The position numbers and the translations under genes were made by a program. This document shows, piece after piece, positions 28,820 to 64,000 of a stretch of 64,000 nt of DNA. Positions within the stretch are counted from its first letter, which is position 1, and each line of letters opens with the position of its first letter. Below the pieces are notes generated by a model, which worked only from the letters and a program-made list of their open reading frames with translations, searched no databases and had not been told where the DNA came from. The stretch is from Halicephalobus mephisto (taxonomy: Eukaryota; Nematoda; Chromadorea; Rhabditida; Panagrolaimidae), in NCBI GenBank assembly GCA_009193035.1, contig SWDT01000104.1, positions 124,001 through 188,000 of the forward strand, read 5' to 3'.

Positions 28820-28916
28820 AAAAATTATTTAAAATCACTTAATTCTTGCCTTTAATCAACTTTATTAAAATTTTCGACAAAAAAAGGCATTCAGGAATGG
28901 AATAAAGAAAATAAAA

Positions 28917-30082
28917 CTTTTATGGGTATATGTAGGTTACACGGACGGGACGAAAAAAAACTTTCGTGTCGGTTTCATTTTCCTCGGTTTCAGTATTTTT
29001 CCATATATATTAGTTTTCCTTTTTTGTTTTTTTCCCGTAAAAAATGAACAATTTCGCGGAAATTATTGTATACTTTGTTTACTTCTTTTAGCTATGCCTA
29101 CACTCTGGGAATTGCCAACCACAGAAGAATCAGCTTTCGATTTCTTGGTTAGAAGGGGAATCCTTTCCAATGAGCGGCTTTGTCGTAACAGACATCAGAT
29201 GAAGTTAAGCGTTGAAGCCGGATACTTTAGATGTACTAAGCAGTCATGTAATCTCAAGAGCAGTTTGAGGAACCAAACGTGGCTGGATGGTGCCCGGAAG
29301 GACTTAATGACCATAGTTAGATTCATCTACCTGTGGTCAATAGAAAGGAATGAGGTGGGTTTCTGTGAAGAGCAACTCAAGATCTCCAAGGACACTGTTA
29401 TCGAGCGGAATTCGTCGATGAGAGAGGTATGTATTAACAGCTTAGAAGACAGGAATAGAAAAATCAGAAGCGAAGGAAAAACCGTGGAAATTGACGAGTC
29501 TTTGTTTACTAGAAGGAAAAACCACGCCGGAAGATTGCTGTCTCCCCAATGGGTCTTTGATGGAGTCTGTCGTGAAACGAAGGAAGGGTTTCTTGTAAGA
29601 GTCCCAAATCGCAATGCTGTAACACTGATGAAGGAAATACAGAATCATATAGCGAAGGAATCAACCATCTTCTCAGACTCCTGGAAAGGATACAGAACTG
29701 AAAGCTGTCGGATTTCCTTTAAAGTTAATCACTGTTATAACTACTTGAACCCAGATAATCCAGAGGTTAACACTCAAATGATAGAGCAGCTGTGGGGTTC
29801 ACTGAAGTGGCGCAATAAGCGTCATCGTGGCACCGCGCGCCATCAACTTGATTCTTATTTAGCAGAATTTATCTGGCGTCAACAATTTGACAAGAAAAAT
29901 CTGTTTTCTGAAATCTTGGAAGAAATCGCCAAGCAATTTGAACCTTTGAAACAAATAATGTGATTAGTTATTGTTTCAATAGAGTTGTTATTGTTGATTT
30001 TGTGATTGAAACCGAGAAAAATGAACCTGACACGAAAATTTTTTTTCGCGCCATCCGTGTAACCGACAAGTACCCTTTTATG
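28917..30082 (+). mobile_element. Intact Merlin DNA transposon with 8-bp target duplication
   Basis: The element spans 28925-30074 (1,150 bp). It is flanked by a perfect 8-bp direct repeat CTTTTATG at 28917-28924 and 30075-30082. Its terminal inverted repeats begin GGTATATGTAGGTTACACGG on the left and GGTACTTGTCGGTTACACGG (complement) on the right, and extend for about 65 bp with roughly ten mismatches. It carries one uninterrupted transposase frame. Eight-to-nine-base target duplications and an IS1016/ISXO2-like transposase are the defining traits of the Merlin superfamily. Confidence 0.92.
29094..29963 (+). CDS. Merlin transposase (ISXO2-like DDE)
   Basis: An intronless frame of 289 aa that cuts and pastes the surrounding element. 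The N-terminus carries a possible zinc-binding cluster (C..RH..., then RCTKQSC). The catalytic core has D134 in VEIDES, D195 in FSDSWKGY and E231 in NTQMIEQLW, with 35 residues between the last two acids. That is the DDE pattern of ISXO2/IS1595-like and Merlin transposases. The aromatic-rich helix after the glutamate (WRNKRHRG, FIWRQQF) is also typical. Length matches the family (about 270-310 aa). The start is the first ATG after an in-frame stop. There are no frameshifts or stops, so the enzyme may be functional. Confidence 0.92.
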   Translation: MPTLWELPTTEESAFDFLVRRGILSNERLCRNRHQMKLSVEAGYFRCTKQSCNLKSSLRNQTWLDGARKDLMTIVRFIYLWSIERNEVGFCEEQLKISKDTVIERNSSMREVCINSLEDRNRKIRSEGKTVEIDESLFTRRKNHAGRLLSPQWVFDGVCRETKEGFLVRVPNRNAVTLMKEIQNHIAKESTIFSDSWKGYRTESCRISFKVNHCYNYLNPDNPEVNTQMIEQLWGSLKWRNKRHRGTARHQLDSYLAEFIWRQQFDKKNLFSEILEEIAKQFEPLKQIM

Positions 30083-60190: not shown

Positions 60191-60540
60191 GTAAGCGAAT
60201 ATAAACTGTCGAAGAATATACTATGAAGGCCACGTGTAAATTTCTTGTGTTCGATTGGGTCTGGAACAAACACCAGAACTTGATGCTAAATTGTCAGAAA
60301 TCACGATTAGAATATGTTCAAAGTGTGAACTGCAGTTTGTGAAGTAAGATGGATGCAATAAGACAGTCTGTAGGTGTAAAGCCAAGTACCGGCATCTCTG
60401 CAAGGCATCCATTGAAGATTTTTCTCATTTTTGCCAATATGGCTGGAATGGCACAAATGGACGATGTCTAGAGTGCCGCAAATCCTGTTATCTTTATGAA
60501 CATACTGATCATAAGAACAATTAGGATATAGAAGTCAAAG
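60190..60540 (+). pseudogene. RBR-domain pseudogene related to the 61.9-63.9 kb gene
   Basis: The plus strand reads as a decayed copy of residues ~137-235 of the RBR-RRM protein downstream. Recognisable pieces are RIYYEGHV, ELDAKLSEITIRICSKCELQ, then DGCNKTVCRCKAK, IEDFSHFCQYGW and GRCLECRKSC. At least two in-frame stops interrupt it (near 60237 and 60345), and a zinc-ligand position has changed. The catalytic-type cysteine context (GCNK) is still visible. An Asn/Asp-rich coding-like tail follows to about 60650 beyond more stops. No RRM sequence follows, so either the copy is partial or it descends from an unfused RBR gene. Confidence 0.8.
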
Positions 60541-61181: not shown

Positions 61182-61410
61182 ATACACAAAAAAGTACATA
61201 ATTTATAATGTAAGGATATATTAAAGCGGTTTTTATCAGATTCATTATATTCCACGTATCCATGGATTAGAACTTTGAATGTACCACTTTTTTGTGTATG
61301 AGTAAAACAAAATAACTAAAGCAATACACAAAAAAGGACACATAGTATATAATGTAGGGATATACTAAAATAGCTTTTATTTATCAGGGAAATTATATTC
61401 AACCTATCCA
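61182..61410. mobile_element. MITE family B, one full and one half copy
   Basis: A 119-bp unit at 61182-61300 has ends ATACACAAAAAAGTACATAA and the complement of TACCACTTTTTTGTGTATG. A second copy of its left half lies at about 61323-61410 (ATACACAAAAAAGGACACAT, then TATAATGTAGGGATATACTA). The ends resemble those of MITE family A. Confidence 0.6.
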
Positions 61411-61462
61411 TCTGTTGAATATAATACCAATACATTATTATTCAATATATTGGTATATTAAA

Positions 61463-61649
61463 TACCGTATTTGCTCTAATAGAGGCACATGTGCCACAAT
61501 TTTTCAATTGATCTGTTAGGATGGGCCACTATTAGAGATGCGCCACAAATAGAGAGTGTGCCACTATTTTTCGATTAATGCGTTAGGGTGGGCCACTATT
61601 AGAGGTGTGCCTCAAATAGAGATGTGCCTCTATTAGAGCAAATACGGTA
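61463..61649. mobile_element. MITE family C (TACCGTATTTGCTCTAATAG ends)
   Basis: A 187-bp palindromic element with near-perfect inverted ends TACCGTATTTGCTCTAATAG. The interior contains repeated GGGCCACTATTAGAG and GTGCCACTATTTTTCGATTA phrases in both orientations. It has no coding capacity. TA-flanked elements with TACCGTATTT-type ends occur widely in nematode genomes. Confidence 0.75.
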
Positions 61650-61951: not shown

Positions 61952-63919
61952 ATGGAATTTAAATGTATTATTTGTCTTGAATCTTGTTCTGTCAACAACG
62001 GCATCGTACGTTGTTCTTTCTTCAATAACAACGAAGATTCGGAAACGACCCATGAGACATGTGCAGAATGTATCAAACGCCTTGCGAGATCCGCGATTAC
62101 AAACGCCTCTATAGCCAAAGGGGGAATCGGATTACTGTGTCCTTTTCTCGAATGTAACAATATTCTTTTTGTTAGTAAGTTTTACTCTTACTTTATTCCA
62201 TGATATTATTTTTTTAGACGATTTTGATGCCTTTTTGGATGAAAATACTTCTTTCGCATTGGCTCGACGACTTCAGGACGAAGCCATCTTTGCTGCTGAA
62301 TTGGAGGATCTCGTAACTTGTTCTGGATGCGGGACAAAATTTTGCGTTGATCCAGATTTGAACTTTTTCGATTGCCAGTGTGGGAGAAGACAATGCCGAA
62401 CCTGCCCCAGAATCTACGACGAAAACCACATGGGAGTGCCCTGTTCGGAATTCGATGAACAAGATAGACAAGACAGATTGGAACCTAAGCTCTCAGAAAT
62501 CGCAATTCGTGTGTGTCACAAATGTAAAGTATCATTTGTAAAAGAAGAAGGATGCAATAAGATGGTCTGCAGATGTGGGGCTAAGCAATGTTATCTCTGC
62601 CGTCAGGCGGTTGAAGACTACTCTCACTTCTGCGAATGTGGGTGGAAAGAAACTTCTGGGAAGTGCCCGAGATGCCATAAATCCTGTCCTCTCTTTGGGG
62701 ATCCTGAAGAAAGAGATAGGATCCAGATGGAAGAAGTCATAGTGGCGTTCAATAAGACAGAGAACTCTACTATATCCACAAATCTTTTCATCAAAAACTT
62801 TGGAGACGAGCTGGATCATGAAGACCTCTTTGATCTCTTTGAGAATTTTGGAGAAATCACTAACTATGCGGTCATGAAACATCCGGACGGGAAAGCAAAA
62901 GGATTCGGATTCGTAGCATTTGTGGATTCTAAAGCCGCTGAAGCAGCTATCAAAGCAATGAACGGATATGTGCTTCCGATTTCGAAGAATAAGTTATACG
63001 TCGCACAAGCTCAGATAAAAGCTGAACGACAGGCTGTGCTGGATAAGAGCGTTAATCTCTACATTAAAAACCTCAATAGCTCTGTTACCAATGACGATCT
63101 TCTTCGATATTTTGAACCTTTCGGCAAAATTATCAGTGCCAAGGTAATGTGTAACGAAAATGGCCAATCTAAAGGCTTCGGATTTGTTTGTTTTTCGGAT
63201 TCCAAAGCTGCTGAAACCGTCATCAAGAATCTCAATGATCGTCAACTTCCAATTTCGAAGACGAAGATATATATCGGAATAGCTCAAAAGAAATCCAAAC
63301 GACAGGCGCAACTAGTTCAAGGAATTAAAAATAACGAAAACAATACCTTGTATGTAAAAAACTTGGACAAATCCATCGACGAAAATTGCTTACGAGAGGA
63401 ATTTGGAAGGATTGGGAAAGTCGTGAATGCCAAAGTTAGTTTTAATTCACTATTAATCACTTATATAATATTTAGATCATGTATGATGGAACAGGTGTCT
63501 CGAGAGGCTTTGGATTTGTTTCTTACGAGAACTCTGATCATGTCGCCAGAGCTATTCGGGTCATGAACAACAGAATGATTCGTAGAAAGCCCATCGTAGT
63601 CAGGCTGTATAGAAGAAAGGAAGGAAAACTTTCAAACACATCGAACACTAATGCTATGAACAGATTCAATCCTGCCGATATTCCTGGGCCGTCTGGAATC
63701 TCTCAACCTCGAGTATTACCGTCTCAACGCCCCATTCCTCTACCTCGTTCACTTCTTACTACAAACCCGAATCATATGGTATCCAGACCGTCCGAGAATC
63801 AAAGACCCCAATCCAATGTTAATCCCTCTCCTCCCCAGAATCATATCACATTGCTCCAAACGATGAATGTTAGTGGTATTTCTGCTGAGAGTTTTAGTTT
63901 TTTGCTAAAAAAAGAATAG
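61952..63919 (+). CDS. RBR ubiquitin ligase fused to three PABP-type RRMs
   Basis: Three in-phase exons, 61952-62174, 62218-63434 and 63476-63919, encode 627 aa. The N-terminal third is a complete RBR module: RING1 (C5, C8, C21, H34, C37, C40, C63, C68), IBR (C109, C112, C127, C129, C134, C137, H145, C150) and RING2 (C174, C177, C192, C194, C199, C202 and others). The putative catalytic C187 sits in EEGCNKMVCRCG, the form seen in RNF216/TRIAD3. RNA-binding domains follow, with RNP2/RNP1 pairs LFIKNF/KGFGFVAF (264/302), LYIKNL/KGFGFVCF (355/393) and LYVKNL/RGFGFVSY (452/490). Linkers such as QIKAERQAVL and KKSKRQAQL copy those of cytoplasmic poly(A)-binding protein RRM2-RRM4. The tail is Pro/Asn-rich and I see no MLLE domain. 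Exon 2 runs from the IBR into the third RRM without a break, so the fusion is not an annotation join. Poly(A) signal AATAAA is near 63974. Confidence 0.88.
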
Positions 63920-64000
63920 ATTAAATAACTTCAAAAAAAGACTCATCGTTTGGAACGATTGATAATTGTGTCAATAAAAGATAATATTATTGATTGTTGA

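Follow-up and report, generated by a model that had tools for sequence, protein, structure and literature searches.

Ubiquitin ligases of the RBR class move ubiquitin from an E2 to a cysteine of RING2 and then to the substrate; RNF216, a member of this class, is described in excerpts of the same source as having K63 linkage, activation by K63 di-ubiquitin, an active-site mutant C688A, an RBR construct that starts at residue 511 and, in the legend of Fig. 7, a zinc-binding extension of RING2 (PMC9834252). RBR subfamilies often carry extra domains, and a plant helicase RBR subfamily unites RBR and RNA helicase in one protein (PMC2904391, in excerpt). For the cytoplasmic poly(A)-binding protein (PABP), excerpted sources report that RRM1-2 binds eIF4G and poly(A) and that the 40S and 60S subunits are contacted through RRM2-3 or RRM3-4 (PMC6261967), that RNA binding by RRM3 and RRM4 is weak (PMC6547884), and that the MLLE domain is the mapped site for PAM2 proteins (PMC2854688). 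A link between the two fields is provided by MKRN1, a RING E3 that binds PABPC1, depends on PABPC1 for its position upstream of poly(A) tails, and has RPS10 and PABPC1 among its substrates (PMC6805484, in excerpt).

The gene analyzed here, gene A, we classify as an RBR of the RNF216 type whose targeting module is new. MKRN1 is its nearest functional parallel, in the sense only of working alike as an E3 near poly(A) tails; its catalytic domain is a RING and not an RBR, and it is placed through PABPC1 without PABP-type RRMs of its own. UBR5/HYD is a HECT E3 with a PABP-type MLLE domain, and thus another E3 with a domain common to PABP, although catalysis is of the HECT kind and MLLE stands in place of RRMs. 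The plant helicase RBRs of the DEAH11/12 type likewise join an RBR to RNA-related domains in one protein, but they bear a helicase, belong to another RBR subfamily, and have RRMs that are not of PABP type; the membership of DEAH11 in that group and its domain order are our assumption. The Pfam models RBD_DEAH11 and RRM_DEAH11 weakly match the RRMs of two paralogues of gene A, called B (E 1.6e-6) and C (E 8.4e-5) below. Word searches of the open-licence literature yielded no description that we recognized of an RBR joined to PABP RRMs: PMC3305615, in its excerpted part, names no RRM, and PMC12898128, which matches both RBR and RRM words, concerns Ataxin-2 in the part consulted. Nematode proteomes may already contain such a fusion that has drawn no comment.

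Gene A occupies 61952..63919 of a 64,000-nucleotide stretch of the Halicephalobus mephisto genome (the window; C38:124001-188000, contig SWDT01000104.1, in an assembly of 59.9 Mb and 331 contigs), and bare coordinates below are those of the window; gene A, its parts and a decayed RBR fragment ahead of it are on the + strand. The genome carries the nematode SL1 leader, with 375 matches at ≤2 mismatches against 0 for the reversed control; the Rfam SL1 model gives 47 matches of 38.5-49 bits, none above its cut-off of 75. A model made from sequence alone gives three exons and 627 residues, with the ATG at 61952 and the stop at 63917-63919 where the preliminary description had put them. Exon 1 (61952..62174) holds RING1 and the start codon, which falls at an identical alignment position in paralogues B, C, and D; intron 1 (62175..62217; GT..AG, phase 1) matches the models of the same three paralogues in place and phase. 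Exon 2 (62218..63434) is open throughout its 1,217 nt and encodes IBR, RING2, a cysteine cluster, the linker, RRM-a, RRM-b, and the first 31 residues of RRM-c, so that the junction between the RBR and RRM halves lies within a single open exon. The exon had been credited with most of the IBR, all of RING2, and most of the RRMs, of which the first item needs correction, since all IBR ligands are in exon 2. Intron 2 (63435..63475; GT-AG, phase 0) splits RRM-c, and exon 3 (63476..63919) supplies the end of that RRM, a fast-evolving tail (63632-63916), and the stop; a possible poly(A) signal, AATAAA, follows at 63973..63978. A single-sequence AlphaFold2 model of exon 2 has a mean pLDDT of 41.5 and is unusable. 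Elsewhere in the window, short near-repeats (61182-61411 and 61490-61634, 78% and 86% identical) lie just upstream of gene A, and an open frame at 28869-29963 contains an ISXO2/IS1595-like DDE transposase domain (Pfam PF12762, E 2.6e-12).

The closest solved RBR to the N-terminal half, by search of PDB sequences, is RNF216 (7m4m, E 3.9e-29; 8eb0, E 2.5e-28), the next RBR being ARIH1 (1wd2) at E 0.0021. Predicted zinc ligands were placed in an RBR alignment of 11 rows, made up of 10 of the 12 RNF216-like loci of the genome and part of RNF216; the first of two loci on contig C216 and a decayed fragment in the window were left out of this alignment and of the corresponding tree. They are C5, C8, C21, H34, C37, C40, C63, and C68 for RING1 (61964-62155); C109, C112, C127, C129, C134, C137, H145, and C150 for IBR (62319..62444), where the RNF216 alignment concurs; and C174, C177, C192, C194, C199, C202, H211, and C213 for RING2 (62514..62633), which the RNF216 match also covers. 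Gene A thus has Cys or His at all 24 ligand columns, eight per domain, although only five of the eight RING1 columns are comparable with RNF216 itself, the printed match beginning at query residue 32. Inside RING2, all 11 rows have Cys in the column of the catalytic-type C187 (62553-62555), whose counterpart in RNF216 is C688, the residue that is Ala in 8eb0. The likeness to RNF216/TRIAD3 (7m4m, 8eb0) comprises the RING1-IBR-RING2 ligands where they can be compared, a catalytic Cys at the C688 position, and the cysteine cluster after RING2 (C215, C224, C227, and C231, 62637..62687), a putative zinc-binding-type extension in which only C215 differs, being His in RNF216. The difference lies at both ends: the region before RING1 is absent from gene A, whose first RING1 ligand is residue 5, and RRMs and a tail follow RING2.

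A full RING1-IBR-RING2 with a catalytic-type cysteine, as first described, is accordingly upheld by the RNF216 match and the ligand columns. Scoring of the N-terminal half by HMMs, named beforehand as a finding that could overturn the RBR reading, gave a divided answer. Pfam reported no RBR, IBR, or RING family in this half of gene A at E up to 1, nor in B or C; on the other side stand the RNF216 match and a homologue on contig C87 that matches the RBR half (E 6.1e-33, 31% identity) and passes the Pfam IBR cut-off (37.4 vs 24.3 bits). These two results overrule the Pfam verdict, and we read the miss as a limit of the model, a Pfam score being no defining trait of an RBR. Judged by its sequence, then, the N-terminal half is an RNF216-type RBR. 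Because Pfam is blind to the RBR in A, B, and C, the search for "IBR plus RRM_1" in one protein that had been suggested would miss gene A.

The C-terminal half is of PABP type. It matches yeast Pab1 among PDB sequences (6r5k, E 9.3e-60), and Pfam RRM_1 finds three stretches (E 3.5e-58), which we compared with the four RRMs of a PABP of the same genome, on contig C136. RRM-a (62778..63041) is 61% identical to RRM3, against 43% for RRM4, 33% for RRM2, and 19% for RRM1. RRM-b (63051..63314) is a hybrid, resembling RRM4 as far as the intron column (65%) and RRM3 over the last third (52% vs 37%), and RRM-c (63342..63631) is 47% identical to RRM4 and 27-30% to the others. Gene C shows the same assignment with equal or higher scores, and B the same with weaker ones; the extra RRM of B is mixed, and in the last third of its third RRM the score favours RRM3 and the identity RRM4. 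For 10 of 10 RRMs in the three genes the best score falls on RRM3 or RRM4, for none on RRM1 or RRM2. RRM-a and RRM-b also share an LPxSK loop, common to the PABP RRM3 of this genome and two residues longer than in RRM1, 2, and 4. In a tree of the RRMs, one of 11 inner branches is well supported and seven are open, so the identities rest on pairwise scores and the intron. An RRM2 identity for RRM-c, suggested by an intron at the corresponding position of RRM2 in the C136 PABP, was rejected: in all three fused genes RRM4 gives the better score, and in two PABPs on contig C230 it is RRM4 that has this intron.

Compared with cytoplasmic PABP (Pab1/PABPC1), gene A has RRM3/RRM4-type RRMs, the LPxSK loop, and the RRM4 intron site of two PABP genes of this genome; it differs in having an RBR in front, a hybrid middle RRM, and neither RRM1, RRM2, nor MLLE (no Pfam match to the last in A at E 0.1, nor in B or C at E 0.01). 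By eye, A and C seem to have shortened or lost the charged helix that follows PABP RRM4. The array had been read as RRM2-RRM4 with RRM1 replaced by the RBR. What stands of that overall interpretation is its core, the union within one nematode gene of an RNF216-type RBR and PABP RRMs, which we confirm as real; the numbering gives way to RRM3, RRM4/RRM3 hybrid, and RRM4, and the replacement of RRM1 to the absence of RRM1 and RRM2 alike.

The RBR half belongs to a family of some breadth in this genome. A genome search with it gave 23 rows, which we read as 12 RNF216-like loci: A, B, D, and a decayed fragment on C38; C on C17; and others on C87, C103, C8, C212, C216 (two), and C321. Continuation into PABP RRMs occurs in three of the 12 (A, B, and C), and a genome-wide RRM search together with the fetched regions revealed no RRMs beside the others; as 150 of 171 candidates were scored in that search (RRM_1, 127 matches), the count of fused loci is a lower bound. 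Gene C (605 residues) has a complete three-exon model with the junction as in A. Gene B (720 residues, four RRMs) begins 118 nt after the end of A, 38 nt past the end of the window. Both B and the diverged C keep the order, exon plan, and junction of A. A region of C17 (L011, C17:527501-533500) was considered as a fourth fusion and set aside, being an RRM gene with no RBR seen and no row of the RBR search. Paralogue D (L014:4007-5445, C38:197907-199345) has an RBR similar to that of A followed by a different tail of ~200 residues, with no Pfam match over cut-off and no RRM seen there. The decayed fragment (60204..60533), upstream of A, is most like type D, has no RRMs, and contains three stops inside the match. 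The RNF216-like gene on C103 (L025:4966-6543) has tandem repeats of ~55 residues before RING1 in its first long frame. Between B and D, open frames at L014:1093-2851 look like polymerase and protease pieces of what we take to be a large Maverick-type transposon; Pfam found no family in the two of them that were submitted. A scan of viral contigs with exon 2 gave one stretch matching a pattern and no relatives.

The 118 nt between the neighbouring genes A and B contain AATAAA and TTTTAG, an arrangement that may resemble an operon. Residues 1-115 of B group with D and the C103 gene, apart from A and C (support 97/96, five rows), and 20-codon windows of B starting at 121, 201, and 221 are 93, 97, and 100% identical in nucleotides to A, against 50-80% in the others; the near-identical stretch (windows 201-240) ends close to the RBR/RRM junction. 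B is thus a mosaic, likely produced by conversion or crossing-over, and in the RBR tree, where the RNF216 row is partial and long, B and D are not resolved beside A+C. Because of this exchange the junction of B is tied to that of A; the junction of C is independent.

Divergence among the fused genes indicates that both halves look selected. Nucleotide identity between A and C is 72% in the RBR half and 71% in the RRM half (B: 71% to A and 66% to C in the RBR half), and BLASTN similarity starts 7 nt ahead of the start codon and reaches into the tail. For this pair dN/dS (NG86) is 0.214/1.678 in the RBR half and 0.237/1.313 in the RRM half, values to be taken as rough guides to ratio and age alike, as dS exceeds 1 for most pairs and is near saturation. 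Differences by codon position run 56/43/110 and 68/51/119, respectively (third-position excess p 7e-9 and 8e-8), and constraint on the RRM half looks comparable to that on the RBR half. At least two loci have long maintained the two halves as a unit. Evolution is fast in the tail, which makes up the last 95 residues of A (dN 0.6-0.8), and the A-B differences there, at 39/46/35, have no third-position excess.

The origin of the RRM array has left a trace in its intron. In A, B, and C, intron 2 has the codon and phase of the RRM4 intron of the two PABP genes on C230, and exon 3 of A starts with ATC ATG, as in both those genes; the C136 PABP has no intron at the RRM4 site. From the retention of this intron it follows that the RRMs were, as the sequences indicate, taken from genomic PABP DNA with the intron included. 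A retrocopied PABP as donor is ruled out, since the RRM4 intron came along. The order of RRMs would be explained if an RRM3-RRM4 pair was copied in tandem and its inner RRM4 and RRM3 then fused. The two C230 genes (L034, C230:29501-32500; L035, C230:104601-107600) are very similar, PABP-like, and 75 kb apart; several frames of L035 are broken, by decay of the copy or by assembly error.

What such a protein does can be envisioned from its parts, and we lean toward an RNF216-type RBR whose RRM3/RRM4-type array, captured from genomic PABP DNA, docks the ligase on mRNA or ribosomes. RING1 would bind the charged E2, and C187 in RING2 would take over the ubiquitin as a thioester before handing it to the substrate, the anatomy being that of gene A and the chemistry that of RNF216. 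The RRM array would replace other targeting parts and recruit the ligase to ribosomes or to mRNA rich in A or in AU, where ribosomal proteins, PABP, or other mRNP proteins would be likely substrates. Because RRM-b is a hybrid, PABP binding properties are not to be assumed for gene A, and with RRM1-2 and MLLE gone the product would be no full PABP. For the same reason the decoy PABP that had been proposed is a weak idea where eIF4G is concerned: the main unit for binding eIF4G and poly(A) is missing, as is MLLE. The most likely product is an RBR ligase that docks on mRNPs or ribosomes; its catalytic anatomy is seen in the conserved ligands, and its docking is suggested by the array.

It is also possible, if rather unlikely, that the array is a protein-docking module that imitates PABP RRM3-4 and catches PABP partners, or PABP itself, for ubiquitination. 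The hybrid RRM-b and the internal duplication of the array suggest freedom from exact PABP geometry, and the RRMs of B are constrained relative to C (dN/dS 0.273/1.235, with the roughness noted above) despite loss of three of 12 RNP aromatic positions, counted by eye. At the same RNP positions, which presumably are position 2 of RNP2 and positions 3 and 5 of RNP1, aromatics are nevertheless kept at nine of nine in A and nine of nine in C (by eye on the alignment). Two mapped partner sites of PABP are, moreover, missing, namely RRM1-2 for eIF4G (PMC6261967) and MLLE for PAM2 proteins (PMC2854688), as far as the excerpted sources map them. That the fusion is fixed yet idle, the RRMs being a tail that an active RBR ligase tolerates, is very unlikely: paralogue D indicates that the RBR can do without RRMs, and the last 95 residues of A change rapidly, but the RRM half is held about as tightly as the RBR half in anciently diverged loci. 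An assembly join, or two adjacent genes misread as one, is barely credible and largely refuted, and the fusion is no assembly artefact: an in-frame ATG does lie at the junction (62727, MEEV), but purine-rich bases precede it, unlike a nematode splice acceptor, a single open exon spans the junction, and the identical junction in A (C38) and in C (C17), at 72% nucleotide identity of the RBR half, and in B, with order and exon plan kept and both halves apparently selected, dismisses that reading.

For the docked ligase that we prefer, a wider and decidedly speculative role can be sketched. The expanded RNF216-like family could provide a nematode lineage with RNA-sensing ligases whose C-terminal targeting modules are exchangeable, D having another tail in place of the RRM array of A, B, and C. 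When a foreign or aberrant transcript is A-rich, be it from a transposon or a virus or a stalled mRNA, the RRM forms would ubiquitinate the ribosomes or mRNP proteins on it, as a defence or quality-control arm; we know of no such arm in any model nematode. Whatever its role, this family allows domain capture to be traced within one genome, where the kind of donor, the intron, and a subsequent exchange among paralogues are all legible. If docking is as we propose, gene A would encode an animal thioester-forming ubiquitin ligase wired to mRNA or ribosomes by borrowed PABP modules in a single chain, and would make it possible to test within one protein how mRNPs come to carry ubiquitin marks, a task for which MKRN1 uses a separate PABP.
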